Of a stretch of DNA of 64,000 nucleotides, positions 43,277-63,223 are shown in pieces. The translations under genes and the position numbers were made by a program. Location: the IMG/VR virus record IMGVR_UViG_3300047089_000043, positions 32,290 through 96,289 of that record; one strand, written 5' to 3'. Numbering within the stretch: the stretch's first letter is position 1; each line of letters begins with the position of its first letter. The notes beneath the pieces are model-generated. The model made no database searches, was not told where the DNA came from, and saw only the letters and a list, made by a program, of their open reading frames with translations. The DNA comes from a virus.

Positions 43277-43279
43277 AGG

Positions 43280-43447
43280 TCATACCAGCCATTCTGAAAC
43301 GTCGGTGCCGAATTCAGCGGCCAAATCCTCGGCCGCTAGTTGCCGCAGTTCTTCGACAGTTTCGAGTTGATCCAATTCCTGCGCGGCAAGATCGTCCTTT
43401 TCGCGATCACTGCCGACTCCGAATAGAGCGCTCACTTTTTCCTCCAT
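43280..43447 (-). CDS. Hypothetical acidic helical protein, 55 aa
   Basis: ATG 43447 after ATGGAGGAAAA-type context. Coiled-coil-like (AAQELDQLETVEELRQLAAE). Unknown. Confidence 0.55.
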   Translation of the reverse strand: MEEKVSALFGVGSDREKDDLAAQELDQLETVEELRQLAAEDLAAEFGTDVSEWLV

Positions 43448-43947
43448 GTGATAATAGCGGCGTAACTGAATACGCCGGGCGAGCACCTGCCACAGCTATA
43501 CTTACGACCTGTCAATGGCTGACGGGCGCGAGTCTGAGTGTGGCCATTCGGGCAGGTACCAACCCAGTTGCGTGCGTGCCTTTGGCTAGGGTAGCTACCT
43601 TGCGCCGCGCCATCGTATTGACGCGCACCAGTGCAGCCAATCTCGATAGCCTTAGCTTTCCACACTTTGTCATGCCCATGGTTCGGGCAAAGTGCGTGGG
43701 CTATTTCATGCAGCACGGTATTCATTGCTGCTTTGTAAGTCCAGATAGCGAACAGGTGAACGCTAAACCCGACTTCCTTAGCGGCGTAACGGCACTGCCC
43801 GCCCCGCCTTTTCGTATTGTCGTAAACGGCTGTCCAGCCCCTAGCCGCTAGACCATACTTGTCTAGCAGCGCGGTGGCATCATCGTGAATGCGCTTAAGG
43901 TGCGCTAGGTTCACGTCGGCGGGTAGATGAATTGTGCGCCGGGCCAT
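43432..43947 (-). CDS. SprT-like zinc metalloprotease
   Basis: 171 aa from ATG 43947. NTVLHEIAHALCPNHGHDKVW is the SprT HExxH motif with the third His and HD, and C-terminal CPNGH...CGRC is the zinc ribbon. Relatives (SPRTN/Wss1) cut DNA-protein crosslinks; phage copies are common, role unproven. Confidence 0.85.
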   Translation of the reverse strand: MARRTIHLPADVNLAHLKRIHDDATALLDKYGLAARGWTAVYDNTKRRGGQCRYAAKEVGFSVHLFAIWTYKAAMNTVLHEIAHALCPNHGHDKVWKAKAIEIGCTGARQYDGAAQGSYPSQRHARNWVGTCPNGHTQTRARQPLTGRKYSCGRCSPGVFSYAAIITWRKK

Positions 43948-43952
43948 TCTGA

Positions 43953-44087
43953 TTACCTCCAACCGAGCGGAGCATACCCGCCATTCGCCATGTACTGACG
44001 CAGGCTCGCCATGTAATCGGCGGCAAGAGCCTTGTCACCATCGCGCACCGCGAGCTTGTAAAGGTTGAAAACGTAGTCCGGGTCCAT
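43953..44087 (-). CDS. Hypothetical protein, 44 aa
   Basis: ATG 44087; RBS AAAGG weak. MDPDYVFNLYKLAVRDGDKA is TPR-like helical. Unknown. Confidence 0.55.
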   Translation of the reverse strand: MDPDYVFNLYKLAVRDGDKALAADYMASLRQYMANGGYAPLGWR

Positions 44088-44130
44088 TTGGAATCGGGCC
44101 TTTCGTGTGGTGGATTTGATTTGAATTAGA

Positions 44131-44198
44131 GGCCGCTGGGGGAATCGAACCCCAACCCGTAACGAATGTGTTAACCCATCCGATACACGCACTAGGCC
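44131..44198 (-). tRNA. tRNA-like gene, anticodon uncertain
   Basis: T-arm TTGGGG-TTCGATT-CCCCCA is canonical and GGCC/GGCC starts an acceptor. The anticodon-like arm GGATG/CATTC has an 8-nt loop GGTTAACA. May be a degenerate tRNA-Asn or a pseudoknotted RNA like 40156. Confidence 0.4.
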
Positions 44199-44284
44199 AG
44201 GTTTGCAACCCATGATACCTAGTCCAATCATTCGCCAGCTTCGGGCGCGAACCCTATGATCGGCAGCGGTCAAGTTTTTATAGT

Positions 44285-44357
44285 AGGCCGGGAGGGATTT
44301 GAACCCTCACTGTCCGGGGTTTGAATCCGGTTTCTCTGCCTATTGGAATACCGGCCC
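44285..44357 (-). tRNA. tRNA-Leu(CAA), tentative
   Basis: Acceptor and T-arm (GAGGG-TTCAAAT-CCCTC) canonical. Anticodon arm CCGGA-TTCAAAC-CCCGG has an A-C mismatch at 31-39. Short variable loop, unlike bacterial Leu tRNAs. Confidence 0.65.
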
Positions 44358-44366
44358 ACAGAATTT

Positions 44367-44516
44367 TTACTCACTGGGCATCGCGAATATCGCGGCACTC
44401 CGCACCTTGGCGCAGGGCTGGCAGATATTGACAGGACCCGTAGTAGTAGTTTCGGTGAAAGTCTCGCCGCAGTCTTTACAAACTGTGGTGTAAGTGGTCT
44501 TTATCTCTTGCATCAT
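44367..44516 (-). CDS. Small zinc-ribbon protein, 49 aa
   Basis: VCKDCGETF...NICQPCAK: two CxxC pairs. Basic/Thr-rich linker. Unknown. Confidence 0.6.
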   Translation of the reverse strand: MMQEIKTTYTTVCKDCGETFTETTTTGPVNICQPCAKVRSAAIFAMPSE

Positions 44517-44652
44517 TAGCCTGTCCTTTCTGCTGTGTGGTGGATAAGAGTTGAGAACAATGGGCCGACCTATCGTCTTATTTATTCTCCCCGGATTGTG
44601 CGCACGCCCCGGATACCGTCAGCTATTGTCAGCCGTTTTAACCGCTTCGCTC

Positions 44653-44736
44653 CCTTGCGATAAACGCGCCCGCTCTAACGCGGATCTTTCACCATTCGCC
44701 CACTGAATACAGTTCATAAACACCGCTCACGCAAGG
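44653..44736. other. tRNA-sized inverted-repeat cassette
   Basis: Terminal stem CCTTGCG/CGCAAGG (7 bp), 84 nt, with internal TGAA/TTCA and CGCG stems. Part of the protein-free stretch 44517-45537, which otherwise holds more cassettes, a tRNA-like RNA and promoter P1. Confidence 0.5.
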
Positions 44737-44920
44737 CAGCAAACAGGCCCTTTCGGTTGCTGTCTGCTTATCGCGCTTATGTGCCGTAGCTGCCAGCCTA
44801 GGGTTAATCTATGGCTAAAGGCTCTTGACGGTTCCCATTGTCCAACTTTATGTGCGGACAAACCCCCTGCCGTTATCGCATTCAGCGACGGCTCCCGGTT
44901 CTTTGCCTGCCCGCACTAGC

Positions 44921-45027
44921 GGTGAATGCGGGAATCGAACCCGCGTAATCGTCATTGTTTCGGTTGCTATCCGGGCGGAAGCCCGAGCCTAAGCGTCCCT
45001 AACAATCCACGTACAACCGTTATCACC
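44921..45027 (-). ncRNA. tRNA-like RNA with T-arm and pseudoknot core, 107 nt
   Basis: Acceptor GGTGA/TTCACC region and T-arm GCGGG-TTCGATT-CCCGC are tRNA-like. Between them CGGTTG/CAACCG and ATTGTT/AACAAT cross each other (pseudoknot), with a hairpin CGGGC-TTCC-GCCCG inside. Confidence 0.5.
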
Positions 45028-45119
45028 GGCCATTGAGCTAGTCTCTGTCTCTACTATGTGCGATGCCCGTAGGCCGCTAAAGCTAGATAAAGAAGAAGGA
45101 CTTTCTCAGTTTGGCTTAC

Positions 45120-45170
45120 GCGGCTAAGTCCCGAAACACGATTACCCTATGGACAATCGAAACTAGCCGC
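45120..45170 (-). other. 7-bp-stem cassette, 51 nt, possible pseudoknot
   Basis: Outer stem GCGGCTA/TAGCCGC. On the minus strand CGATT/AATCG and GTCC/GGAC cross. Tail end of the array driven by P1. Confidence 0.5.
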
Positions 45171-45287
45171 AATCCACAAGACCTGGCACTTGCTAAGCCC
45201 ATTGAGTCACCTCGCCGGGCCGGGAATCCACCATGCGAATTCCCTTAGCCACGTGTTCCGCTTTGGCTTGTGGTTTAGTTTATGGTT

Positions 45288-45344
45288 GCTAACCTTTCCC
45301 GTGGCGGTGCCCAATCGCACCCTGGCCCCACTACCGAGGTTAGC
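45288..45344 (-). other. 7-bp-stem cassette, 57 nt
   Basis: Outer stem GCTAACC/GGTTAGC; inner nested stems GTGG/CCAC and GGTGC/GCACC. Confidence 0.5.
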
Positions 45345-45364
45345 CGTTCGTTTCGGCTTACTGC

Positions 45365-45463
45365 GACGAACCATCAAAGGTGGACTTCTCACCGCGAGAT
45401 CCCGACTTAGAGATCCTTCGGCCGCAGTCCCGACCTGCCCGTTCGTCTTGCCTTACATCACTA
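45365..45463 (-). ncRNA. Structured leader of promoter P1
   Basis: First about 100 nt of the P1 transcript. Shares CGGGCAGGTCGGGACTG, CCGAAGGAT, loop TAAGTC and AAGTCCACCTTTGATGG with the P2 leader (47404-47510). The hairpin GATCTC-TAAGTC-GGGATC keeps its pairing while its sequence differs from P2 (GATTCC/GGAATC). Confidence 0.6.
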
Positions 45464-45492
45464 ACATTACAGGGCGGCGACCCGGTTGTCAA
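45464..45492 (-). promoter_or_regulatory. Leftward promoter P1
   Basis: TTGACA (45487-45492), 17-nt spacer, TAATGT (45464-45469). Upstream CGCAGGTCAG and a T-rich TTTTCAAGATTTTTC tract recur at the other leftward promoters. Drives the structured-RNA array. Confidence 0.8.
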
Positions 45493-45537
45493 ATCCTGGC
45501 CAGGCCGCTGACCTGCGACGATGAAAAATCTTGAAAA

Positions 45538-45750
45538 TTACTTCCATCGGATCGACTTGGAATCTACCCTCCGAACGAAGATCTTCCCGCTGAGAGTACG
45601 GAGAGTGACGTTAGGGCCACGGGTCCATACCCGCGTGATCGTGGCAGGCTCAACGATCCATGAAACGAAGATCGTAAGCTCGCCGTTACCGTCAGCCGCC
45701 CACTTGACGTGTTCAAACTCGACGGTATCACCCGCTGTGAACGTGGGCAT
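45538..45750 (-). CDS. Hypothetical SH3/OB-like protein, 70 aa
   Basis: FTAGDTVEFEHVKWAADGNG...GPNVTLRTLSGKIFVRR is a small beta barrel pattern seen in short phage proteins. Unknown. Confidence 0.6.
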   Translation of the reverse strand: MPTFTAGDTVEFEHVKWAADGNGELTIFVSWIVEPATITRVWTRGPNVTLRTLSGKIFVRRVDSKSIRWK

Positions 45751-45935
45751 TACCGCACGCGCCTAGCGTGGGGCGCATTGTCCCGAAGGATGGGCAGCGC
45801 GGCCAGCTCTGCGCGGGTGAGCGCACCCGAGACGCCAGCACGGCGCAGAGCGCTACGGCGATCATTGTCCCGCTTGATACGGGCCATGGTGAGGCTGGCG
45901 CGGACGGTGGCAGGGCTAGGAACGGTGGGCTGCAT
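45750..45935 (-). CDS. Hypothetical basic protein, 61 aa
   Basis: Arg/Ala-rich, helical. Follows repeat element C. TAATG-type coupling to the next gene. Unknown. Confidence 0.55.
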   Translation of the reverse strand: MQPTVPSPATVRASLTMARIKRDNDRRSALRRAGVSGALTRAELAALPILRDNAPHARRVR

Positions 45936-45989
45936 GATCTGTCTCCCTCTGGTTTACGTGGCTGCGTCGCGCACCTATGGCGCTAGACA

Positions 45990-46078
45990 GCTCTCAGATA
46001 GATTCTGAGCGGATATCAGGGCCGACCCTACATGGTTGCTAGGGTCGGCCCGTTCGGACGGCTTAGCGTTGCTCTCAG
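45990..46078. repeat. Intergenic repeat element C with 11-bp hairpin
   Basis: Inverted version of element B: CTCTCAGATAGATTCTGAG, then a perfect hairpin GGGCCGACCCT (46019-46029)/AGGGTCGGCCC (46041-46051), then AGCGTTGCTCTCAG (46065-46078). On either strand the hairpin lacks a T-run. Confidence 0.65.
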
Positions 46079-46100
46079 CGTCCTACGGACGCAAGACGTG

Positions 46101-47252
46101 TCAGACTTCCGAGCAACGGGTAAGAACGGTACTCTTGGTCCCGTTGTACTCGTCATGCTTACGCACGGTACCCTTGAGAGTGAAGCTGCGGTCAACGTCA
46201 CCATCGCGGAACACGGCGCGACTTGAGAACCACTTAACCAGGTGGCCATCATCGGTCACGAAGGAATAGAGCGAGGTAACGCCGAACTGTCCTTCGATAA
46301 AGCGAATGGACTTGAGCGTCACGGGAAGCTCCAACTTATCCTTGATCTCGCCAAGGAATTCATTGGTAAGCTCGTTATTCTCGCGCTGCTTGATAAGCGA
46401 ACGCTCGCGAGACTTGGCCCATGCCTGCGGAGCGGAAACGAGGAAGCCGACAAAGCGCGGCTCAACGAATTCGCTGCGAGCGATGTTCTTAAGGTTCGTG
46501 ACGTACTCGCCATAGCCCGAGAATTCATCCGACAGAATGAATTCGCGAATCATGGTGGCCGCACTGGCAGACTCCGCAACGTGCGGCAGAATCTTCTGGG
46601 CAAGCTCACGCTCAGCAGGGGTACGCGGATCGAGTACGGCAAGCACCGTTCCCTTAGTCGCGCCCTCATCACCGGAGCGAACATAACCGAACTGCTCAAT
46701 GCAAGCCCAGGCAGCGGCCAGAATGGTATCGACGGAATAGACCGGGGCCGAATGGCCAAAGCCACCCTCGCCAAACAGGTCATTGTCGGACGGCGGCATG
46801 ACCCACACCGGGTTAGTGTTCCACCCGAGGAAATCCTTTAGGCAAGTAGATCCGACTTGGACCTGCTCACCATTGTCACTGCGGACAATGTAAGTGCTCT
46901 TGCGATAGCGGTTGATTCCGCAGTGATCGCACGAACCTTCGGTAATTCCCGAGCGATCGATGCCATCGACACCGGGCGCGGTGAACAGGACCATTCCGCC
47001 ATCGGCCCAATCGGCGCGAGCGAGGAAAGTCCAGCCGTCGTACTTCGGGGGATTGCCGGAAATGGTAACGTGTACCATCTGACGCTCACGCTTGAGGCCA
47101 ACGCCATTGTCGGTAACTTCGGTGAAAGCCTCGCCGCTAACGGTAAGGATTCCAGTCCAGCCACGCTTAGCGGCGCGGGCGTTAAGCTTGGCGATCTTGT
47201 TGGAGGTGAGTGCGAATTCAGCAGGAGTGAGATCGATTTCGCGAGTGCTCAT
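46101..47252 (-). CDS. Conserved phage/plasmid protein with four-Cys motif, 383 aa
   Basis: Longest leftward gene. CDHCGINRYRKSTYIVRSDN...QVGSTCLKDFLG marks a family widespread in phages and plasmids but without assigned function; the Cys set probably binds zinc. The C-terminal third ends with a beta-rich WFSSRAVFRDGDVDRSFTLK segment that looks like an OB/SH3 domain. No nuclease or ATPase motif seen. Confidence 0.75.
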   Translation of the reverse strand: MSTREIDLTPAEFALTSNKIAKLNARAAKRGWTGILTVSGEAFTEVTDNGVGLKRERQMVHVTISGNPPKYDGWTFLARADWADGGMVLFTAPGVDGIDRSGITEGSCDHCGINRYRKSTYIVRSDNGEQVQVGSTCLKDFLGWNTNPVWVMPPSDNDLFGEGGFGHSAPVYSVDTILAAAWACIEQFGYVRSGDEGATKGTVLAVLDPRTPAERELAQKILPHVAESASAATMIREFILSDEFSGYGEYVTNLKNIARSEFVEPRFVGFLVSAPQAWAKSRERSLIKQRENNELTNEFLGEIKDKLELPVTLKSIRFIEGQFGVTSLYSFVTDDGHLVKWFSSRAVFRDGDVDRSFTLKGTVRKHDEYNGTKSTVLTRCSEV

Positions 47253-47293
47253 TTTGCTTTGCCTTTCGGTCTATGCCGTTGTCTTGTTTGAGT

Positions 47294-47365
47294 AGGCGAT
47301 ATCGGATTTGAACCGATGGCATCTGCTTTGTAGGAGCAGCGCTCTACCGAACTGAGCTAATCGCC
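47294..47365 (-). tRNA. tRNA-Val(TAC) with C33
   Basis: Acceptor GGCGATT/TATCGCC, anticodon stem CTGCT/AGCAG with loop CCTACAA, T-arm ATCGG-TTCAAAT-CCGAT. Position 33 is C instead of the near-universal U. Confidence 0.9.
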
Positions 47366-47403
47366 TGCGTTGCCAGCCTTTCATGCGAGGCTGGCCGATC
47401 TTG

Positions 47404-47510
47404 GTAGGTAATTCGCAGAACCATCAAAGGTGGACTTCTGACCACGCGATTCCGACTTAGGAATCCTTCGGTTCTCAGTCCCGACCTGCCCGTTCTGCCC
47501 TACATCCACT
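47404..47510 (-). ncRNA. Structured leader of promoter P2
   Basis: Homologous to the P1 leader. AGAACC near the start pairs with GGTTCT at the end; hairpin GATTCC-TAAGTC-GGAATC inside. Runs into tRNA-Val. It fills the gene-free stretch 47366-47606 together with P2. Confidence 0.6.
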
Positions 47511-47539
47511 ACATTACAGGCTGGCCGGGAGCTTGTCAA
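47511..47539 (-). promoter_or_regulatory. Leftward promoter P2
   Basis: TTGACA (47534-47539), 17 nt, TAATGT (47511-47516). Confidence 0.8.
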
Positions 47540-47606
47540 ATCGTGAGCAAGCCCCTGACCAGGGCAAACGAAAAACTTTGAGAAAAACTCTGGCCTCGCC
47601 AGCCTG

Positions 47607-47957
47607 TTACAGCGTCTCCCACACCTCGCCTCGCAGGTAATCGATCCGAGTAGCGCCAGAGTCCGGGGCACCGAAATCATCCAACGGGCCGAACGCTTCC
47701 TCACTTTCGGAATCGCCCAGGAATACGCCCGAGAAATACAGCTCGTCATCATCATCGTAAATGCGGAATCGCGTAAGCTGATCCGCATTCTTGATTGGGT
47801 GCGCGAGAATTGCGAGCTGCGCATCGGTCGCATTGTGCGGACCGTGAATGCTAACAGTCTCGGATTCGAGGTGATCGCGGGTAATGCGCCATGCATAGGA
47901 GCTTTCATCCGCGTTGTAATTCGGGTCCATTGCGCGAGCCTGCGCGTAGCTGACCAT
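47607..47957 (-). CDS. Hypothetical acidic protein, 116 aa
   Basis: YAQARAMDPNYNADESSYAW at the start; acidic throughout. RBS GGAGG before ATG. Unknown. Confidence 0.65.
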   Translation of the reverse strand: MVSYAQARAMDPNYNADESSYAWRITRDHLESETVSIHGPHNATDAQLAILAHPIKNADQLTRFRIYDDDDELYFSGVFLGDSESEEAFGPLDDFGAPDSGATRIDYLRGEVWETL

Positions 47958-47962
47958 TGTGA

Positions 47963-48157
47963 TTAAACCTCCATTGCCTTGCTGACGGCAACCAGCGCGT
48001 CAGAGATTGCGAGCTGCGCGTCTAGTGCGGTTGACAGCTCATTCCGTGCGTGCTGCGCGGTCGTGATCTTGTTAACCCTCTTGTGAATCCGGGCGATAGC
48101 GCGGTGAACCTTGGTAAGCTCGTCACGCTCTGCGCGGGTGAGAGTCTGTGTCTGCAT
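47963..48157 (-). CDS. Hypothetical helical protein, 64 aa
   Basis: Helical heptad-like sequence (RDELTKVHRAIARIHKRVNK). Unknown; may be a small dimeric regulator. Confidence 0.6.
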   Translation of the reverse strand: MQTQTLTRAERDELTKVHRAIARIHKRVNKITTAQHARNELSTALDAQLAISDALVAVSKAMEV

Positions 48158-48179
48158 GATGCGATCCTGTCTGTCTGCG

Positions 48180-48269
48180 CGGCCCTCACAGCCACGCTGA
48201 CGGCGTTTGGCAGGCGACCCGGTATGATCGCCTACCCTAGCGGTCTGAGAGGCTTAGAATCGATCTCAG
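48180..48269. repeat. Intergenic repeat element D
   Basis: CACGCTGACGG, then CCCGGTATGATCGCCTACCC, then CTTAGAATCGATCTCAG (48253-48269), the same order as elements B and E. It runs into the end of the next gene. Confidence 0.6.
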
Positions 48270-48661
48270 GCGTACTCTGACGGCGTTCCCTGCGGCCAGT
48301 ACCCGTCACCCGTGGCGAAGTAATACGCGCCACCCGTGACAGGATTGCCAGCGGCGTACAGCGCGTCAACCTCATCGGTCGAATCGACCACGGCAACCAC
48401 GTTGAAATCAATGGTCAGCTTAACATCGTCATGGAAGACACCGACATAATCCGCCTCGCCCATGTCAGCCATTATCATATCGAATGCCGCGACGAATGTC
48501 GCAAAGCTGGCATTCTCGTGAATGGAAAGCGTGCCGCTAATTGCGACCGCGTAAGCGTCGGCACCATCGGGCACCATGAAACCATCGGCGCTAATTGTCG
48601 CGCCACCCCACGGTCCCTGTGCCCTCTTGTAAGCGATTTGCTTAACCGCGCAACTGATCAT
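48266..48661 (-). CDS. Hypothetical protein, 131 aa
   Basis: Beta-rich, acidic; SISADGFMVPDGADAYAVAI-type repeats of short strands. Four-nt spacing from the next gene. Unknown. Confidence 0.6.
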   Translation of the reverse strand: MISCAVKQIAYKRAQGPWGGATISADGFMVPDGADAYAVAISGTLSIHENASFATFVAAFDMIMADMGEADYVGVFHDDVKLTIDFNVVAVVDSTDEVDALYAAGNPVTGGAYYFATGDGYWPQGTPSEYA

Positions 48662-48664
48662 TGT

Positions 48665-48757
48665 TTACCTCCCGCATTCCAGAATGGCGACGCCACACGC
48701 CGCGACGATAACCACGATCATAAGAATAAAGACGATGAGCATGTGATGCCCTTTCAT
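48665..48757 (-). CDS. Tiny membrane protein, 30 aa
   Basis: One transmembrane helix (MLIVFILMIVVIVAACGVAI) after a short basic/His N-terminus. Coupled to 48266. Confidence 0.5.
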   Translation of the reverse strand: MKGHHMLIVFILMIVVIVAACGVAILECGR

Positions 48758-48776
48758 TGTGCTTGAATTTCAGAGC

Positions 48777-48848
48777 GCGCCGTATAGGACTTGAACCTAT
48801 GACACACGGTTTAGGAAACCGTTGCTCTATCCTCTGAGCTAACGGCGC
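48777..48848 (-). tRNA. tRNA-Arg(CCT)
   Basis: Acceptor GCGCCGT/ACGGCGC, anticodon arm ACGGT-TTCCTAA-ACCGT, T-arm ATAGG-TTCAAGT-CCTAT. Confidence 0.95.
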
Positions 48849-50408: not shown

Positions 50409-50437
50409 ACATTACGGCAGTTCGGCCCGCTTGTCAA
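50409..50437 (-). promoter_or_regulatory. Leftward promoter P3
   Basis: TTGACA (50432-50437), 17 nt, TAATGT (50409-50414). Upstream CGCAGGTCAG and A/T tract as at P1. Confidence 0.8.
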
Positions 50438-51518: not shown

Positions 51519-51613
51519 TAGGACGGGCACGACGCGGCGGTAAGGTGCAACGTCGCAGGTAGACAGCTTGTGACCTGGTGTTTTGCACTTTTTTCGATGT
51601 GCTTGCCCGTCCT
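51519..51613. other. Large structured cassette, 95 nt
   Basis: Perfect 10-bp terminal stem AGGACGGGCA/TGCCCGTCCT with inner pairs CGACG/CGTCG, CAGGT/ACCTG and GTGCAA/TTGCAC, some crossing. First element of the rightward tRNA array. A weak rightward promoter (TTTTGG-17-TACTAT) may lie just upstream. Confidence 0.5.
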
Positions 51614-51673
51614 AGTAGGTGAAGATACTTCGAGAAAATGACAGTGGCGACTGTTACGATCGTTGTACGACAC

Positions 51674-51755
51674 GCCGGATTATGCAAGTAGACAAAGCTC
51701 GCGGTTTGTAAAACCGTTACCTCTGGTTTCATTGGTGCAAATCCAGTATCCGGCA
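51674..51755 (+). tRNA. tRNA-Tyr(GTA)
   Basis: Acceptor GCCGGAT/ATCCGGC, anticodon arm GCGGT-TTGTAAA-ACCGT, extra-long variable region as expected for bacterial Tyr. Confidence 0.85.
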
Positions 51756-51760
51756 CTTGA

Positions 51761-51846
51761 GAACTATGGATTAATCGCGTAGAGGTTTGGCAGCCAAACG
51801 AAACTATCCACCGTGCCAACGGACTAGAATGATAGTGAAATAGTTC
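51761..51846 (+). other. 7-bp-stem cassette, 86 nt, not a tRNA
   Basis: GAACTAT/ATAGTTC terminal stem; inner hairpins GTTTGG-CAG-CCAAAC and CCGT-GCCA-ACGG, and CTATC/GATAG. No T-loop or anticodon-like loop. Confidence 0.55.
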
Positions 51847-51853
51847 TTTCAAT

Positions 51854-51927
51854 GGGGCATTAGCTCAGCTTGGTAGAGCGTCTGATTTGCAATCAGAATG
51901 TCATCGGTTCAAATCCGTTATGCTCCA
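51854..51927 (+). tRNA. tRNA-Ala(TGC)
   Basis: Acceptor GGGGCAT/ATGCTCC with G-T at 3-70, anticodon arm TCTGA-TTTGCAA-TCAGA, T-arm ATCGG-TTCAAAT-CCGTT. Confidence 0.95.
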
Positions 51928-52019
51928 CGAATAAAAACAGGATGTTTGTTAGTGACTGTCCGAGGTATCAGATTGATACCCAGAGAAACTATCACCTATT
52001 ACAGATTGGAAGTCCAGAT

Positions 52020-52196
52020 ATGAATATGGCAGAATTCAAAGCAGCAGTTCACAAGCTGCCAGATGACCTAGACGTATTCCTTAAGGTTCCTGACCTTACA
52101 TCAGAGATTATCAGGAATCGCGGAGAGATGCCAGTAACATCTATTAAGATAGCCCCGGCTGGTTTTGGGTTGCTAGTTCTTATCAGTTCTGACTAA
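52020..52196 (+). CDS. Hypothetical protein, 58 aa
   Basis: ATG 52020 after TTGGAAG. MNMAEFKAAVHKLPDDLDVF...VTSIKIAPAGFGLLVLISSD; similar in layout to small actinophage proteins. Embedded in the tRNA array. Unknown. Confidence 0.6.
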   Translation: MNMAEFKAAVHKLPDDLDVFLKVPDLTSEIIRNRGEMPVTSIKIAPAGFGLLVLISSD

Positions 52197-52209
52197 CTAA
52201 TCTTTAAGT

Positions 52210-52255
52210 AATGCTGATTACCATCTTACGATTGGTAATCATTATCGCGTCCGTT
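52210..52255 (+). terminator. Two strong hairpins after the 58-aa gene
   Basis: TGATTACCA-TCTTACGAT-TGGTAATCA then GCGTCC-GTT-GGACGC. No T-run; could be RNA-processing or 3'-end elements rather than terminators. Confidence 0.45.
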
Positions 52256-52265
52256 GGACGCTATG

Positions 52266-52347
52266 GTGTCTTGACCCAAATAGCTGAGGGATCGGACTGT
52301 GAATCCGTGCGTAATGCAATAGCGAGTGCGAATCTCGTAGGACACCC
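52266..52347 (+). tRNA. tRNA-His(GTG)
   Basis: Acceptor (G)GTGTCTT/AGGACAC(C), anticodon arm TCGGA-CTGTGAA-TCCGT, T-arm GCGAG-TGCGAAT-CTCGT. D-loop and 13-nt variable loop are atypical. Confidence 0.75.
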
Positions 52348-52410
52348 GAGTAGTTAGACTTTAAGGGATCTCCAAAAACTACTATAATCTAAATAGGAAA
52401 TCCCCTCATC

Positions 52411-52481
52411 GCGGGTTAGTGTAGTTCAGTAACACGTCAGCCTCATAAACTGAAACCACCGGAGCAAAGCCGGTACCCGCT
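52411..52481 (+). tRNA. tRNA-Met(CAT)
   Basis: Acceptor GCGGGT/ACCCGC, D-arm GTGT/ACAC, anticodon arm TCAGC-CTCATAA-ACTGA with C-A mismatch at 31-39, T-arm ACCGG-AGCAAAG-CCGGT. Lacks the three G-C pairs of an initiator, so probably elongator. Confidence 0.8.
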
Positions 52482-52493
52482 ACTAATTGAATA

Positions 52494-52620
52494 AGTCTGG
52501 GCGGAACGTCTTGAGATAGGCAGACTATAAACTAGCGAGGCGGCAATTAGGTCGAGGGCAAACGACCCATAAACTTTTAGAATCCTGGGTAGGTATGAAT
52601 CCCTTTACTACCTAGGGCAC
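52494..52620 (+). other. Structured stretch without tRNA features
   Basis: GTCT..AGAC, GGTCG-agggcaaa-CGACC and TAGGTA..TACTACCTA stems follow each other. No coding gene or canonical tRNA fits. Confidence 0.4.
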
Positions 52621-52652
52621 ATTAATTAAGGGATGCCCGTTAGGGAGTCGCA

Positions 52653-52802
52653 ATGACTGTTGTAGATTTTGATGATAGGACCATTACGTTCGTTAGTGAT
52701 GGCAATGAGGTAACACTTACCTGGGGTGAACTGAATTTCCTTAAGCATTACAAGGCCGATAAGGCTAAGGAAACCCCGGCAAAGCGCCGCTCGCGGTACT
52801 AA
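52653..52802 (+). CDS. Hypothetical protein, 49 aa
   Basis: RBS AGGGAG. MTVVDFDDRTITFVSDGNEV, basic C-terminus (KRRSRY). Unknown small protein inside the tRNA array. Confidence 0.6.
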   Translation: MTVVDFDDRTITFVSDGNEVTLTWGELNFLKHYKADKAKETPAKRRSRY

Positions 52803-52840
52803 TTTAGACCACCTATTTCCTCGTGATCTAGGTCTAAGAT

Positions 52841-52869
52841 CCCTGTATGATTCTCACGACCATACAGGG
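52841..52869 (+). other. Hairpin CCCTGTATG/CATACAGGG
   Basis: Perfect 9-bp stem, 11-nt loop, no T-run. Immediately followed by the next cassette. Confidence 0.5.
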
Positions 52870-52871
52870 AA

Positions 52872-52920
52872 GGATTACACGGTGCAGATAATCCGGCCGG
52901 TAAAGAGCTAAGTGTAATCC
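52872..52920 (+). other. 9-bp-stem cassette, 49 nt
   Basis: GGATTACAC/GTGTAATCC ends with a CCGGCCGG core. Same design as other cassettes between tRNAs. Confidence 0.55.
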
Positions 52921-52924
52921 GCAT

Positions 52925-52995
52925 TGGAGATTGGTGTAGTGGTAACACAACGGCTTCCAAACCCGTTGACGTGGGTTCGATTCCTACATTTCCAG
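52925..52995 (+). tRNA. tRNA-Trp(CCA)
   Basis: Acceptor TGGAGAT/ATTTCCA, anticodon arm ACGGC-TTCCAAA-CCCGT with C-C mismatch at 31-39, T-arm GTGGG-TTCGATT-CCTAC. Gly(TCC) is the less likely alternative reading. Confidence 0.75.
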
Positions 52996-53017
52996 CTATT
53001 GATAAGGGAGGTATCAC

Positions 53018-53233
53018 ATGACCACGGTACAAGATTATGTGAACTATTGTGAACAGAACGATATGGACACCGATGATATGATGTCTGCCGCATTCTTTGC
53101 TAACAGGCGAAAGATGGACGGAAATCCAATCAACGGAAATGTTGACGATGGCGGAACAGAGTGGACGGATCTAGTTGATTTCATTGCACCCGAGTTGCTG
53201 CCTGCTGTTTGTCCTTTGCCACCTAGGCGTTAA
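53018..53233 (+). CDS. Hypothetical protein, 71 aa
   Basis: Strong RBS AAGGGAGG. MTTVQDYVNYCEQNDMDTDD...; acidic. Unknown. Confidence 0.6.
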   Translation: MTTVQDYVNYCEQNDMDTDDMMSAAFFANRRKMDGNPINGNVDDGGTEWTDLVDFIAPELLPAVCPLPPRR

Positions 53234-53247
53234 GAAAGGGGGGAAAT

Positions 53248-53379
53248 ATGCTACTTCTAATTCTACTGCTGCTATTGCTGCTGCTATTTGCAGGCGCAGG
53301 ATTTGCGCTTCACGTCCTATGGTGGGTTGCTATTATTCTGCTGGTTGTAATCGTAGTTTCTGCTGTAACGCGGCGTTAA
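53248..53379 (+). CDS. Small hydrophobic membrane protein, host-like, 43 aa
   Basis: RBS AAAGGGGGG. Poly-Leu helix, then GAGFALHVLWWVAIILLVVI: matches the short hydrophobic (Lmo0937/DUF5670-like) proteins common in actinobacteria. Probably taken from a host. Two short helices. Confidence 0.65.
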   Translation: MLLLILLLLLLLLFAGAGFALHVLWWVAIILLVVIVVSAVTRR

Positions 53380-53394
53380 TTCTTTAACGCCTAA

Positions 53395-53469
53395 TCCCGT
53401 TTCGTTCAAATGGAAGGACAGCAGGCCCTGAACCTGCCAATTCTAGTTCGACTCTAGACGCGGGAGCCA
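53395..53469 (+). tRNA. tRNA-Gln(CTG) with C33 and encoded CCA
   Basis: Acceptor TCCCGTT/CGCGGGA, D-arm GTTC/GGAC, anticodon stem GCAGG/CCTGC with loop CCCTGAA (C33), T-arm TCTAG-TTCGACT-CTAGA, ending GCCA. Confidence 0.85.
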
Positions 53470-53576
53470 TTACCAATTTAACAACCTAGGAATCTATCCA
53501 ATAGCTAGACTACAGAATGGGGATTATGTGAACGATATGCAATCTTATTCAAGAGTTTGGTCGTATTGGGGTTTGA

Positions 53577-53640
53577 TTACCTAGGCGGTGATCCGATATC
53601 TAAAGGGTAGCGGGTTACTTCACTACCTGGATTAGTTTGT
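53577..53640 (+). other. Structured cassette
   Basis: GGTGA/TCACC outer stem with GGTAG/CTACC inside; followed by GCGGTT/AACCGC. No tRNA features. 53470-53576 has no gene I can support. Confidence 0.4.
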
Positions 53641-53673
53641 CACCTTGGCGGTTGTATAGGTAAAACCGCACAT

Positions 53674-53747
53674 GCCCGGTTAGCTCAGATGCGGAGAGCA
53701 GCCGTTTTGTAATCGGCAGGTCATCGGTTCAATTCCGATACTGGGCT
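53674..53747 (+). tRNA. tRNA-Thr(TGT)
   Basis: Acceptor GCCCGGT/ACTGGGC, anticodon arm GCCGT-TTTGTAA-TCGGC, T-arm ATCGG-TTCAATT-CCGAT. Confidence 0.95.
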
Positions 53748-53834
53748 CTAGAATGTCAGTACCGTATGATACAATTAAATAAACAACTGAATAGGACAGC
53801 AGCACGCTACGCGACTGCTGACCGTTTAAGTCAC

Positions 53835-53905
53835 GCGGGTATAGGCTAACGGTAAACCATCTGCCTTCCAAGCAGATTTTGCCGGTTCGATACCGGCTAC
53901 CCGCT
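53835..53905 (+). tRNA. tRNA-Gly(TCC)
   Basis: Acceptor GCGGGTA/TACCCGC, anticodon arm TCTGC-CTTCCAA-GCAGA, T-arm GCCGG-TTCGATA-CCGGC. Confidence 0.95.
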
Positions 53906-53946
53906 CTAGTATTACAATTGATCGATATCGCCATTGAGCGATATAA

Positions 53947-54018
53947 CGGGATGTGGTGTAATGGTAGCGTGCCTGGCCTGGAACCAGGAGATAGAAAGTT
54001 CGATTCTTTCCATCCCGA
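53947..54018 (+). tRNA. tRNA-Pro(TGG) with C33
   Basis: Acceptor CGGGATG/CATCCCG with A73, typical of Pro; anticodon stem CCTGG/CCAGG with loop CCTGGAA (C33); T-arm GAAAG-TTCGATT-CTTTC. Confidence 0.85.
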
Positions 54019-54044
54019 CTAATACAATTAAATACGAATTACAT

Positions 54045-54118
54045 GGGGCTGTAGCTCAGCTAGGTAGAGCGATTGGGTGAAATCCAATAGGCCATAGGTT
54101 CAATTCCTTTCGGTCCCA
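54045..54118 (+). tRNA. tRNA-Phe(GAA)
   Basis: Acceptor GGGGCTG/CGGTCCC, anticodon arm ATTGG-GTGAAAT-CCAAT, T-arm ATAGG-TTCAATT-CCTTT. Confidence 0.95.
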
Positions 54119-54122
54119 CTAT

Positions 54123-54197
54123 GGCGGAATGGCTGAGCAGTTAGGCGAAGGCTTGCAACACCTTTCCAGACGGGTGCAAATCCCGTTTCCGCCTCCA
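54123..54197 (+). tRNA. tRNA-Cys(GCA) with encoded CCA
   Basis: Acceptor GGCGGAA/TTCCGCC with U73 (Cys identity), then CCA. Anticodon arm AAGGC-TTGCAAC-ACCTT with C-A mismatch at 31-39. Confidence 0.85.
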
Positions 54198-54215
54198 CTT
54201 ACAATTTAATACAAT

Positions 54216-54290
54216 GGGGCTATAACTCAGTTAGGTTAGAGTGCTACCTTGTCACGGTAGAAGCCACGGGTTCAAATCCCGTTAGTCCCG
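54216..54290 (+). tRNA. tRNA-Asp(GTC)
   Basis: Acceptor GGGGCTA/TAGTCCC, G73, anticodon arm CTACC-TTGTCAC-GGTAG. Confidence 0.95.
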
Positions 54291-54294
54291 CTTT

Positions 54295-54369
54295 AGGCGT
54301 ATAGCTTAGTCCGGTAAAAGCAGTTCCCTGATAAGGAAAAGATCAGAGGTTCAAATCCTTTTACGCCTA
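54295..54369 (+). tRNA. tRNA-Ile(GAT)
   Basis: Acceptor AGGCGTA/TACGCCT, A73, anticodon arm TTCC-CTGATAA-GGAA, T-arm AGAGG-TTCAAAT-CCTTT. Confidence 0.9.
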
Positions 54370-54371
54370 CT

Positions 54372-54455
54372 AGTGCCAGTGCCGATAACCTAAGCTCAAG
54401 CTAGTGTGCCCTACGGGGAATGTCGCAGACATTGACGGTGAGGCATTGGCACAGT
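54372..54455 (+). other. Cloverleaf-like cassette, not a tRNA
   Basis: GTGCCA..TGGCAC terminal stem with three inner hairpins (AGCT-CA-AGCT, CCC-TAC-GGG, AATGTC-GCA-GACATT). tRNA-sized but no T-loop or anticodon loop. Confidence 0.55.
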
Positions 54456-54463
54456 TTTACAAT

Positions 54464-54537
54464 GCATCTATAGTAGTAATCGGATAACACACAGGTCTAC
54501 GAAACCTGAATTATCGGTTCGAGTCCGATTAGATGCG
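54464..54537 (+). tRNA. tRNA-Arg(ACG)
   Basis: Acceptor GCATCTA/TAGATGC, anticodon arm CAGGT-CTACGAA-ACCTG, T-arm ATCGG-TTCGAGT-CCGAT. A34 would need host TadA to become inosine. Confidence 0.95.
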
Positions 54538-54541
54538 CTAG

Positions 54542-54628
54542 ATTGTACGAATGCGGTGTGCAGACCACTACCTATGAATAGACGTATTCTTAATTCCGCG
54601 CCTACAGTACGGCGGAAAGGCTACAATC
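54542..54628 (+). other. Cloverleaf-like cassette, not a tRNA, 87 nt
   Basis: Terminal stem GATTGTA/TACAATC (7 bp) with hairpins GTG/CAC, GAATA-GACG-TATTC and TTCCG/CGGAA. Confidence 0.55.
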
Positions 54629-54634
54629 TTTAAT

Positions 54635-54708
54635 GCCCCTTTAGCCCAATTGGCAGAGGCGCTAGGCTTAGATCCTAGAGGTTATTGGTTCAAATCCAAT
54701 AAGGGGTA
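54635..54708 (+). tRNA. tRNA-Leu(TAG), short variable arm
   Basis: Acceptor GCCCCTT/AAGGGGT, anticodon arm CTAGG-CTTAGAT-CCTAG, T-arm ATTGG-TTCAAAT-CCAAT. Lacks the long variable arm of bacterial Leu tRNA. Confidence 0.9.
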
Positions 54709-54720
54709 CTAGTTTTACAT

Positions 54721-54793
54721 TGGCTAGTAGCTTAATCGGCAAAGTACCGCCCTGTTAAGGCGAGGGTTATTGGTTCGAGTCCAATCTAGTCAG
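54721..54793 (+). tRNA. tRNA-Asn(GTT)
   Basis: Acceptor TGGCTAG/CTAGTCA, anticodon arm CGCC-CTGTTAA-GGCG, T-arm ATTGG-TTCGAGT-CCAAT. Last of the array. Confidence 0.9.
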
Positions 54794-54841
54794 CTCATAA
54801 AAATTCATAAAACGCATTCGCGTTCGCGGTAATCTCCGCAA

Positions 54842-60037: not shown

Positions 60038-60049
60038 TCGCTGCCAGCC

Positions 60050-60300
60050 TCACAGCGTGCCAGCCTGCCTAGCCTCTCAGCCTGCCTAGCTCACAGCGTG
60101 CCAGCCTGCCAGCGTCGCTCTGACAGCCTCACAGCGCTACCCGCTAGGGTCGCATGGCACGACGTACCCTCTAGAACGCTCTGAGAGCAACGCTAACGGG
60201 CGTTCGGAGCCTTCCTGGTGTGGTTGCTAGGGTCGGATCTCTGAGAGGCTTAGAATCGATCTGAGAGGCTTACAGCCTGCCAGCGTGCCAGCCTGCCCAG
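60050..60300. repeat. CT-rich repeats and intergenic element E
   Basis: Repeated CAGCCTGCCTAGCCTCTCAG and CACAGCGTGCCAGCCTGCC units (60050-60140), then CTGAGAGCAACGCT (60181-60194), TGGTGTGGTTGCTAGGGTCG, and CTTAGAATCGATCTGAG (60249-60265). No gene in 60038-60396. Confidence 0.7.
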
Positions 60301-60308
60301 CGTTGCCG

Positions 60309-60343
60309 TGTCAACGTAGGTTGACTGTCAACTTTGGTTGACA
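60309..60343. promoter_or_regulatory. Tandem palindromes GTCAAC-N4-GTTGAC, copies 3 and 4
   Basis: GTCAAC-GTAG-GTTGAC (60310-60325) and TGTCAAC-TTTG-GTTGACA (60326-60343) lie head to tail, next to the terminator below. Same motif as at 36.06 and 36.43 kb. Confidence 0.7.
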
Positions 60344-60354
60344 CCGAGGGCATA

Positions 60355-60396
60355 AAAAATGACCCATACCCGGATTACCCGGATATGGGCCAATTC
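60355..60396 (-). terminator. Terminator of the 60.4-61.5 kb leftward operon
   Basis: CCCATATCCGG..CCGGGTATGGG stem followed on the minus strand by TCATTTTTTATG. Confidence 0.75.
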
Positions 60397-60690
60397 TCAC
60401 GCGCTAACGCGCTGCTTACGGGAACGCCGTACCGTGCGACGCGCATTCCAGCGCGTCAGCTTCATTTCGACGCGCCGGGAAATTCCCTTAACGTCGGTCG
60501 CATTGTGCTGCTGAAAGAACGCGATGGCGGCGAGGGTGTCCGCGATTTCTTCCTCTAGGTGCGCCCACGTTTTGACGGAATTGTCGCCACCTACGATCTT
60601 CATAAGCACTTGCGCAGTTTCGTTGCATTCCTCGGCCAGCTTAGCCGCGCCGGGAAGAACGTCACTCTGGACACGGAATGAATTCGACAT
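60397..60690 (-). CDS. MazG-like nucleotide pyrophosphohydrolase, 97 aa
   Basis: LPGAAKLAEECNETAQVLMK and HLEEEIADTLAAIAFF carry the ExxE and ExxD pairs. Paralog of 3149-3427, same length and motif spacing, on the opposite strand 57 kb away. Basic C-terminal tail differs. Confidence 0.85.
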   Translation of the reverse strand: MSNSFRVQSDVLPGAAKLAEECNETAQVLMKIVGGDNSVKTWAHLEEEIADTLAAIAFFQQHNATDVKGISRRVEMKLTRWNARRTVRRSRKQRVSA

Positions 60691-60695
60691 TTTGA

Positions 60696-60803
60696 CTAAC
60701 CCTCTTCTGTTGAATTGGCAGGCTTACGGAGTGTGATGATAATCGATATCCAGCCTATGAGCATAACTAGGCCGGATATCGCGCCGACAATAGCGGTGGA
60801 CAT
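60696..60803 (-). CDS. Tiny membrane protein, 35 aa
   Basis: One transmembrane helix (AIVGAISGLVMLIGWISIII). Coupled (TAATG) to 60803. Unknown. Confidence 0.5.
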   Translation of the reverse strand: MSTAIVGAISGLVMLIGWISIIITLRKPANSTEEG

Positions 60804-60907
60804 TACAGGATCACCAATGCCAGAATGACTAGCACTGCCGTCAGCACTACCGGAATAACCAGGACCAGAGCATTACGCCCGGTAGCCCAGAATTCGACGT
60901 ACTCCAT
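60803..60907 (-). CDS. Tiny membrane protein, 34 aa
   Basis: One transmembrane helix (LVLVIPVVLTAVLVILALVI). Like several 30-50-aa single-helix proteins in this genome. Unknown. Confidence 0.5.
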   Translation of the reverse strand: MEYVEFWATGRNALVLVIPVVLTAVLVILALVIL

Positions 60908-60910
60908 CTG

Positions 60911-61084
60911 TCAGAATTCCTTTCGATTTGAAAGCTCTTTGCGAATAGCGATCTTGGCATCCCCGGTAGGCGTGCAATTGAATGCCTGCCAGAGAATTTC
61001 GCTGGGCGTACTGGACAGATTAACCTCTGCCCAGTCGATAACGTCGCTATGCGACTTGACGTAGTTTACGACGCTGGCACCCAT
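60911..61084 (-). CDS. Hypothetical protein, 57 aa
   Basis: MGASVVNYVKSHSDVIDWAE..., helical, with DAKIAIRKEL. TAATG coupling upstream. Unknown. Confidence 0.55.
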   Translation of the reverse strand: MGASVVNYVKSHSDVIDWAEVNLSSTPSEILWQAFNCTPTGDAKIAIRKELSNRKEF

Positions 61085-61200
61085 TAGACCGGGTACTCGT
61101 CATTGGTCGGGTAACGGCCATTGGCCATAACGAACTTGGCAGAGAAAACACGGCGCATTTCATCGCGCTGCATTTTGGCATTCCATTCGCTAGCGGACAT
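61084..61200 (-). CDS. Hypothetical protein, 38 aa
   Basis: RBS AAGGAAACAC. MSASEWNAKMQRDEMRRVFS helical; Unknown. Confidence 0.5.
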   Translation of the reverse strand: MSASEWNAKMQRDEMRRVFSAKFVMANGRYPTNDEYPV

Positions 61201-61231
61201 TGTGTTTCCTTAGTTAGGTGGATTGGGATAG

Positions 61232-61283
61232 TGAGCTATTGGGAATCGAACCCAATCCTCAAATTGCGAGGAACCGTTAGCCC
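61232..61283 (-). ncRNA. D-armless tRNA-like RNA, 52 nt
   Basis: Acceptor GGGCTA/TAGCTC, single-stranded linker, anticodon-like arm CCTC-GCAATTT-GAGG with a 7-nt loop, T-arm TTGGG-TTCGATT-CCCAA. No D-arm. Could be a remnant. Confidence 0.45.
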
Positions 61284-61295
61284 GGTAATGCTTAC

Positions 61296-61360
61296 TTGGC
61301 AGACGCTAGAATGTCGTAAGCGTCGCAACGCTTACAGCCTACGTAACCACGCGCTGCCAA
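61296..61360 (-). other. 7-bp-stem cassette, 65 nt
   Basis: Terminal stem TTGGCAG/CTGCCAA with inner hairpin GTAAGCG/CGCTTAC. Confidence 0.5.
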
Positions 61361-61363
61361 TCC

Positions 61364-61498
61364 TTAGTGCTTAGCAGGAATGAAGATTCCGAGTGTTCCC
61401 ATAACCATGATGCTTATGAGAACTGCCAGCGGGAAATTGTTGACGAAGATATGGATGCATGGCCGGGAATCTTCGACCAATTCCATAACCTTAGTCAT
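61364..61498 (-). CDS. Small membrane protein, 44 aa
   Basis: MTKVMELVEDSRPCIHIFVN then a C-terminal transmembrane helix (FPLAVLISIMVMGTLGIFIP). ATG 61498 chosen; upstream codons in frame run into non-coding repeats. Confidence 0.5.
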   Translation of the reverse strand: MTKVMELVEDSRPCIHIFVNNFPLAVLISIMVMGTLGIFIPAKH

Positions 61499-61582
61499 GT
61501 AGTGGGTACTGTTCAAACCTCGCGGATGGAGGTGAGCACTACGCATTACGCGAATTCCTTTACTTGAGTGCGGACACTTTCA

Positions 61583-61665
61583 GCGGAATATCGGAACCCG
61601 TTTTACGCCCCTAGAATTACATCCGACAGATAACTAGGTTTGGGACTTAGGTGCGGATATTCCGC
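61583..61665. other. 10-bp-stem cassette, 83 nt
   Basis: Perfect GCGGAATATC/GATATTCCGC outer stem, inner CCTAG/CTAGG. Lies in the gene-free stretch 61499-62416. Confidence 0.55.
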
Positions 61666-61670
61666 CTAGC

Positions 61671-61730
61671 GGTAAGCGCTGGAATCGAACCAGCCCGGTC
61701 ATTAATGCGCTATTGCTAGCATCCCTTACC
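61671..61730 (-). ncRNA. Short tRNA-like RNA, 60 nt
   Basis: Acceptor GGTAAGG/GCTTACC and T-arm GCTGG-TTCGATT-CCAGC are tRNA-like; the inner 28 nt hold only one short hairpin. Confidence 0.45.
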
Positions 61731-61933
61731 CGTTTGTAACTTACGTCCTAAGACTGCATTCAGGTTTAGTAAACCAGACAACCTCTTTGTACTTACCCCA
61801 TAAGGTTAGCGATTGGATACTGGCCACCCATCTAAGGTCAAAGTCTGGGAGCATCCGACGCGCCATTGCTGGCCTTTCGGTTCTAGCTCCGGCTCTTGCA
61901 ACCTGCCCGGCGCCTCACTGCCTTACATTCATA

Positions 61934-61962
61934 AATGTAAGCCCTGGCAAGGGATCGGTCAA
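61934..61962 (-). promoter_or_regulatory. Leftward promoter P4
   Basis: TTGACC (61957-61962), 17 nt, TACATT (61934-61939). Drives the leftward 60.4-61.7 kb RNA cassettes and genes. The three 21-bp repeats lie upstream. Confidence 0.75.
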
Positions 61963-61978
61963 ATCCTTTATCGGGTAT

Positions 61979-62083
61979 ATAATCGCAGGTCACAGCGTTA
62001 TCCACCACATAACCGCAGGTCACAGCGTTAAAAAGAATCTTGAAAATACTCTGGGGATTTACATAACCGCAGGTCACAGCGTT
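61979..62083. repeat. Three 21-bp direct repeats (iteron-like)
   Basis: ATAA(T/C)CGCAGGTCACAGCGTT at 61979-61999, 62009-62029 and 62063-62083. Upstream of P4, so activator sites, or an origin iteron set. The CGCAGGTCA core also occurs upstream of P1 and P3. Confidence 0.75.
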
Positions 62084-62263
62084 TCGTACCTGGTTGCATC
62101 GGTCACTCTGCCTAGCCTCTCAGCCTGCCAGCCTCACAGCGTTCTAAGCGCTTGAAACGTGCGACCCTAGACAATGTGCCTAGACCTAGGTTCTATGCCG
62201 TTAGCGTCGCTCTCAGCGCGTTCTAGAGGGTACGTCGTGCCAGCCTCTCAGCCTCACAGCGTT

Positions 62264-62360
62264 GCCTAGGTGCCTCTCAGCTAGCCTCTCAGCCTGCCAG
62301 CCTGCCTAGGTGCCTCTCAGCTAGCCTCTCAGCCTGCCAGCCTGCCTAGGTGCCTCTCAG
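62264..62360. repeat. 40-bp tandem repeat, two full copies plus part
   Basis: Units 62281-62320 and 62321-62360 are identical (start CTAGCCTCTCAGCCTGCC, end AGGTGCCTCTCAG); 62264-62280 is a partial unit. Same CT-rich family at 60.05 and 63.26 kb. Confidence 0.8.
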
Positions 62361-62375
62361 CCCAGAAACGCAAAA

Positions 62376-62399
62376 TGCCCCGGTATCGCTACCGGGGCA
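62376..62399 (-). terminator. Terminator of the leftward 181-aa gene
   Basis: Perfect TGCCCCGGTA-GCGA-TACCGGGGCA stem on the minus strand followed by TTTTGCGTTT. Confidence 0.75.
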
Positions 62400-62416
62400 C
62401 CTTGTGACGTTTTGGA

Positions 62417-62962: not shown

Positions 62963-62987
62963 TCTGTGTGCCTCCCGGCTGTCTAAG

Positions 62988-63030
62988 TGGTGCTACGCAC
63001 CATCTTAGTCAGGATTTTGGGGTTTGTCAA
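62988..63030 (-). promoter_or_regulatory. Leftward promoter P6 with palindrome
   Basis: TTGACA (63025-63030), 17 nt, TAAGAT (63002-63007), with TGGTGC-TAC-GCACCA (62988-63002) at the start site. Confidence 0.8.
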
Positions 63031-63153: not shown

Positions 63154-63223
63154 GCCCATACAGCGGTAAGTCTGGAATCCTGACTGACTAAATCTTTTCA
63201 AAAGTTAACGGTGTTCACTCGTT

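Follow-up and report, generated by a model that had tools for sequence, protein, structure and literature searches.

The tRNA operon of phage T4 contains, besides its transfer RNAs (tRNAs), the non-tRNA stable RNAs C and D. T4 tRNA precursors are mostly dimers with spacers of less than 5 nucleotides (nt) that are cut by RNase P, an enzyme that also processes two phage RNAs other than tRNAs, M3 RNA and the C4 antisense RNA (PMC11143913). GOLLD and ROOL are structured RNAs of phages and prophages that are of unknown function and often lie close to tRNA islands (PMC12286853). Beyond GOLLD, ROOL and the RNase P substrates, little was found in the literature on small RNAs of tRNA arrays. Annotation of tRNA arrays in phages usually stops at the tRNAs, and if the covarying, unlisted RNAs considered here are real, a standard component of large phage genomes is being under-read. 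The window analyzed here is a 64,000-nt stretch (bases 32290-96289) of the 96,289-base IMG/VR virus record IMGVR_UViG_3300047089_000043, which comes from an uncultured actinobacterial phage and has tRNA arrays on both strands. A first-pass annotation had listed twelve inverted repeats in and around these arrays and had read them as one family of tRNA-mimicking RNAs outside the known classes. We lean towards a different reading, in which the gaps between the tRNAs hold a mixed set of orphan structured RNAs that would be co-transcribed with the tRNAs, are probably freed by the tRNA-processing nucleases, and are not tRNA mimics. For a minority of these gap elements, evolutionary evidence points to real structured RNAs of no known class.

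By the ARAGORN count, the plus strand carries 14 tRNAs (51854-54794) and the minus strand 7 (39763-48848). The closest cultured relatives found through one protein are the Streptomyces phages KimJongPhill and Zuko, at about 42% identity. Comparison of the class II ribonucleotide reductases gives 94% identity with contig L005 and 67-68% with the related phages G002 and G003. The overlap of L005 with the plus array begins at about 53,750 of the window. The features that bear most directly on the argument are as follows, with base pairs abbreviated bp and E denoting the expect value.

61583-61665, minus strand: structured RNA with a 10-bp closing stem, 5 nt 3′ of the tRNA-like segment at 61671, with homologues in two relatives
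61671-61797, minus strand: tRNA-like segment from a scan for T-arms and acceptors, with T-arm GCTGG-TTCGATT-CCAGC, a 7-bp acceptor and no regular anticodon arm
45363-45449, minus strand: leader RNA copy 1, 3′ of the promoter TTGACA-N17-TAATGT (45492-45464)
45288-45344, minus strand: 3′ hairpin of the leader RNA with an 8-bp closing stem; the paralogous hairpin covaries
47413-47500, minus strand: leader RNA copy 2, 3′ of the promoter at 47539-47511 and 5′ of tRNA-Val
61820-61916, minus strand: likely divergent leader RNA copy 3, 3′ of TTGACC-N17-TACATT (61962-61934), E 0.04-0.14
54373-54452, plus strand: element in the gap between tRNA-Ile and tRNA-Arg, three inner hairpins enclosed by an 11-bp closing stem (one G-U), folding z -3.1
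54540-54629, plus strand: element in the gap between tRNA-Arg and tRNA-Leu, three inner hairpins enclosed by an 8-bp closing stem, folding z -1.0
53797-53823, plus strand: in the gap between tRNA-Thr and tRNA-Gly, a small hairpin of the form stem-CACGCTACGCGA-stem

The element at 61583 has homologues in L005 (9420-9522, minus strand) and in L042 (3176-3278, minus strand), each directly 3′ of a tRNA-like segment with a T-arm, and the T-arm and acceptor of the tRNA-like segment at 61671 are themselves retained in both contigs. Identity between the L005 and L042 copies is about 94%. In three pairs both partners have changed and still pair, and two further one-sided changes are retained as G-U; the compensatory changes affect the closing stem and one inner hairpin. 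The window copy has a 10-bp closing stem of other sequence and retains the inner hairpin (loop TRTCG) and the motif GTAAwTC. Because the register of its closing stem against the other two was set by hand and is not a sequence alignment, a count of compensatory pairs for the window copy is not used. Judged by sequence comparison, 61583 is a real, unlisted structured RNA.

The second line of covariation comes from the leader RNAs. The paralogues at 45363 and 47413 differ by three double pair changes, plus two in the hairpin that follows each leader, where the listed repeat at 45288 pairs GCTAACC with GGTTAGC and its counterpart after the 47413 leader pairs GCCAGCC with GGCTGGC. Against an expectation of 1.5, the window has 7 occurrences of the promoter pattern, each of them on the minus strand. 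Promoter-like sites TTGAC-N18-TANNNT with structured leaders were observed on that strand at 45464-45492, 47511-47539, 50409-50437 and 61934-61962; three of them have a common leader architecture, and the leader at 50437 is different and resembles sequence found in L005 and L042. The location of the leaders just 3′ of promoters suggests a function at the start of transcripts, such as antitermination. No match came from IMG/VR when the leader core was sought there as an exact pattern. Covariation, which the first-pass annotation had proposed as the check on its elements, was found among the relatives of 61583 and in the leader containing 45288.

Two elements of the plus array are informative through comparison with L005. 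The element at 54373 is cleanly missing there as a unit bounded by AGT direct repeats, leaving CTAGTTTTAC. The element at 54540 is ~99% identical in L005 although the adjacent tRNA-Arg has diverged, which puts its conservation on par with that of the best tRNAs. The hairpin at 53797 has two further copies in the related phage G003, and in all three the stems are rewritten while the 12-nt loop is invariant.

In the mechanism that we infer, the gap elements would lie on the same transcripts as the tRNAs, and the minus-strand transcripts would start at the TTGACA-N17-TAATGT promoters and run first through a leader RNA. Host RNase P would then cut the flanking tRNAs at their 5′ ends, and RNase Z/E-type enzymes would cut them at their 3′ ends. 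Of the listed elements that adjoin tRNAs, many have about 1-11 nt between the element and the tRNA end, and release of the elements would be expected because these distances are so short. The cuts would free discrete RNAs of 45-100 nt with closed ends that could resist exonucleases. By analogy with the T4 tRNA precursors and with M3 and C4 RNAs, the elements should be freed as RNAs, and they may act as orphan small RNAs. If so, they offer defined short RNAs that can be tested directly for expression and for an effect on infection.

The remaining listed repeats, together with two divergent tRNAs of the plus array that both ARAGORN and the Rfam scan missed, are given below; folding z-scores of individual elements, here and above, are biased in that the elements were chosen for their stems.

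51519-51614, plus strand: rod-like element with an 11-bp closing stem, 5′ of tRNA-Tyr(GTA), folding z -5.3 (selected)
51674-51757, plus strand: divergent tRNA-Tyr (GTA), found from sequence and the T-arm/acceptor scan
51760-51847, plus strand: element with an 8-bp closing stem and no T-arm, from a stem scan and minimum free energy (MFE) fold
52266-52348, plus strand: divergent tRNA-His (GTG), found from the T-arm/acceptor scan and sequence
52872-52920, plus strand: 49-nt element with a 9-bp closing stem, 4 nt 5′ of tRNA-Trp, folding z -2.6
39842-39885 (closing stem listed as 39842-39883), minus strand: 44-nt hairpin of about 16 bp, 3 nt 5′ of tRNA-Glu, folding z -6.6 (selected)
40021-40081, minus strand: 61-nt rod with an 11-bp closing stem, folding z -6.4 (selected)
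44653-44736, minus strand: 7-bp stem element, stem only, folding z -1.7
45120-45170, minus strand: 51-nt rod with a 7-8-bp closing stem, from a stem scan and MFE fold
61296-61360, minus strand: probable 22-codon CxxC open reading frame (ORF) with a TTG start, listed for a 7-bp stem, from codon comparison with L005

All twelve listed inverted repeats are present at the positions given. The observation behind the first-pass annotation is partly confirmed and its interpretation partly supported. Where it described perfect stems of 7-10 bp and spans of 50-95 nt, the stems do exist, but they are 7-11 bp long, they span 42-96 nt, and that of 54373 contains one G-U. Its three-hairpin cloverleaf is the MFE structure in 54373 and 54540 only, and partly in 51760, whereas 51519, 40021, 39842 and 45120 fold as rods. 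A 7-bp closing stem of tRNA acceptor length is the exception among the listed elements. The reported lack of a T-loop and anticodon loop holds: the T-arm/acceptor scan and the MFE folds gave no T-arm flush with a 7-bp acceptor or with the closing stem in any listed element, and an anticodon arm of 5 bp with a 7-nt loop and U33 was seen in none of the MFE folds, inspected by eye. Outside the ARAGORN tRNAs, a T-arm (TTCRANY-like 7-nt loop) flush with a 7-bp acceptor occurs only in the tRNA-Tyr, the tRNA-His, a transfer-messenger RNA (tmRNA) and two tRNA-like segments. At E up to 5, the tRNA covariance model (RF00005) matched none of the listed elements, a negative that is weak evidence in this genome because the same model is insensitive enough to miss the tRNA-Tyr and the tRNA-His as well. 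With no T-arm, no anticodon arm and closing stems of variable length, tRNA mimicry was dropped. A single common family was also abandoned, since no sequence or model similarity was detected among the listed elements. The terminators that could have accounted for the stems were not found, as no closing stem has a terminator-like T tract at its 3′ end; one weak terminator-like site lies inside 51519. Rfam 15, the release used for all such comparisons, gave only tRNA and tmRNA matches at the gathering threshold across the whole window, and the GOLLD and ROOL models gave no match in it. The proposal of RNAs outside the known classes survives in that some elements are structured and have no Rfam counterpart, but about half are supported by a stem alone and 61296 is better explained as coding. 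Relative to L005, 5 of the 8 changed codons of 61296 are synonymous and one stem pair is broken (a small sample and our own reading), and the RNA element was rejected in favor of what is probably a small CxxC coding frame.

Whether stems of this kind mean anything at all has to be weighed against chance. With tRNAs and ORFs masked, closed stems of at least 8 bp in the gaps were compared with 200 dinucleotide shuffles: the plus-array gaps contain 5 against 3.25 in the shuffles (35/200 shuffles reach 5), the minus-array gaps contain 11 against 7.3 (5/200 reach 11), and coding pieces contain 34 against 37. These numbers lie close to chance, stem counting is weak evidence when taken alone, and the counts were dropped as proof of real RNAs; spotting stems does not by itself separate real RNAs from chance. 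Seven listed elements (51519, 51760, 52872, 39842, 40021, 44653 and 45120) have a stem as their only support and no relatives were found for them. The homologue search of 51519, 51760, 54373 and the stretch 39842-40145, which includes 39842 and 40021, covered 24 phage records and gave no credible homologue for any of them; no relatives were found for 52872, and none of the gap elements in INPHARED. Further arrays were sought through a minus-array protein, which gave one distant locus, and through an HNH neighbor protein, which gave none. The stem counts and the seven elements with no relatives weigh against the gaps as a source of structured RNAs, as do three points on the better elements: a covariance model built from the L005 and L042 copies did not recover the window copy of 61583 at E up to 1; the homology of that copy, missed by the model search, rests on its position and on a BLAST match that is short and takes in the neighboring T-arm; and the two copies of 54540 do not vary, which leaves no pair changes in which covariation could show. 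The same stem counts, the same seven elements and the probable coding frame at 61296 would follow if the gaps, about 3 kb of spacer read by eye, were mostly chance and neutral sequence, with the leader and 61583 as the sole real RNAs. Many of the listed repeats could indeed be chance. As an account of the whole, however, we consider this unlikely. When 80-nt windows across all gaps were folded with no selection for stems, they were more stable than windows of coding sequence. Their median z was -0.82 and -0.59, against -0.12 for coding, with Mann-Whitney P values of 8e-4 and 2e-4 that overlapping windows make optimistic. The strongest folders, 51519, 40021 and 39842, all of them rods, lie far below their shuffles, though they were selected, and neither the strong conservation of 54540 nor the behavior of 54373 as a unit is expected of neutral spacer.

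The placement of the elements suggests two further explanations. The elements sit among tRNAs and are of similar length, this phage has derived tRNAs that escape both ARAGORN and Rfam, and tRNA-like segments with no regular anticodon arm exist (61671, 40155 and 44125), so that one might suspect tRNA genes too eroded or too highly derived to have kept their anticodon and T-arm. This origin appears very improbable, as the divergent tRNAs themselves keep their T-arm and 7-bp acceptor (in the tRNA-Tyr, anticodon arm GCGGT-TTGTAAA-ACCGT and T-arm ATTGG-TGCAAAT-CCAGT), while the listed elements have neither and close with 7-11 bp. The missing match to the tRNA model points the same way, if weakly, and 61583 is conserved with a non-tRNA core of its own. 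The elements could instead be insulators or processing aids that prevent neighboring tRNAs from misfolding together or guide the RNases, and that play no part once free. A location a few nt from tRNA ends would suit such a role (51760, for example, is about 4 nt 3′ of tRNA-Tyr and 6 nt 5′ of tRNA-Ala), as would the diversity of sequence and the module-like presence and absence. Yet several tRNAs of the same array stand about 4 nt apart with no element between them (54119/54123 and 54291/54295), and 61583 and the leader keep conserved cores beyond their stems, which makes insulation distinctly doubtful. Different elements may fit different explanations, and a mixed set of orphan structured RNAs is the reading that we carry forward.

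Related phages, whose tRNA arrays hold other covarying elements with no Rfam match, also speak for that reading. The tRNA arrays of G002 and G003 have four conserved non-tRNA elements in common, one of which, famA, is a 60-65-nt element of the form P1-AUGWUCC-P2-GACACCUGGCGGUGACGGCC-P1′ whose core is fixed and whose closing stem is rewritten between phages. A search with the exact core found 25 IMG/VR contigs (20 distinct copies) and 8 genome contigs; six of the latter are from Streptomyces, and the other two have the look of chance matches within coding regions. Across 9 sequences, double changes occur in 12 of 19 pairs, a covariation score that no shuffle attains. There is no Rfam counterpart, no famA-type element was found in INPHARED, and in the window itself the famA model (R3) gave no match at E up to 5 and the core, allowing 2 mismatches, occurred in no array gap. 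It is apparently a new RNA family of phage tRNA arrays and Streptomyces genomes. Copies are located in L044 (4137-4199, minus strand) and L045 (9434-9496, minus strand) and also in L064, L074, L081, L084 and prophage-like contigs, with an integrase-like gene upstream in two contigs. The other three shared elements are 77-88% identical (L044 3647-3713, 4202-4284 and 2745-2809; L045 9667-9734, 10224-10306 and 9371-9433). The element at 54373, which shares GACGGTGA with famA, was considered as a member and was rejected by both the core search and the model search.

Several other features of the window were recorded. A segment at 40313-40468 (minus strand) matches the Rfam tmRNA model at 52 bits, covering model positions 1-374 in only 156 nt, which would make it a very short tmRNA, with no ARAGORN call; its 5′ end, GGGGCTGA..TCGACG, is typical, and it contains a candidate tag frame that ends in VLVAYQSAIV*. 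Segments with a T-arm and an irregular or absent anticodon arm lie on the minus strand at 40155-40243, 44125-44276, 44919-45024, 61671-61797 and 61208-61278, the last of which resembles a minimal acceptor/T-arm RNA with no D-arm and differs compensatorily from L005 in its T-stem and a small hairpin. In the right-hand part of the window, at 60040-63330, short repeats such as GCCTGCC and AGCCTCTCAGC are present many times over, as they also are in L005 and L042, and three direct repeats with ATAACCGCAGGTCACAGCG, spaced 30 and 54 nt, occupy 61968-62081 and are found in L042 too.

Taken further, the tRNA operons of large actinobacterial phages might be general carriers of many kinds of small structured RNA that are swapped as cassettes between tRNAs and released by the tRNA-processing nucleases, with 61583, 54373, 54540 and, in relatives, famA as members of a large and unlisted repertoire with roles in infection, a generalization that we offer only tentatively. 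Within phages of this kind a likeness is offered by famA, a closed non-tRNA element of 60-65 nt in the tRNA arrays of related phages, although famA is absent from the window and occurs too in prophage-like contigs that have no tRNAs. The T4 precursors and RNAs C and D resemble the present arrays, by description and from another phage group, in having tRNAs a few nt apart and non-tRNA RNAs within the operon. M3 and C4 RNAs are likewise non-tRNA phage RNAs that serve as RNase P substrates, a likeness again drawn from description, with the elements here as putative substrates. GOLLD and ROOL share with the gap elements their structure, their proximity to phage tRNA islands and a function that is unknown, but they are hundreds of nt long, whereas the elements of these arrays measure about 42-103 nt and match no Rfam family.

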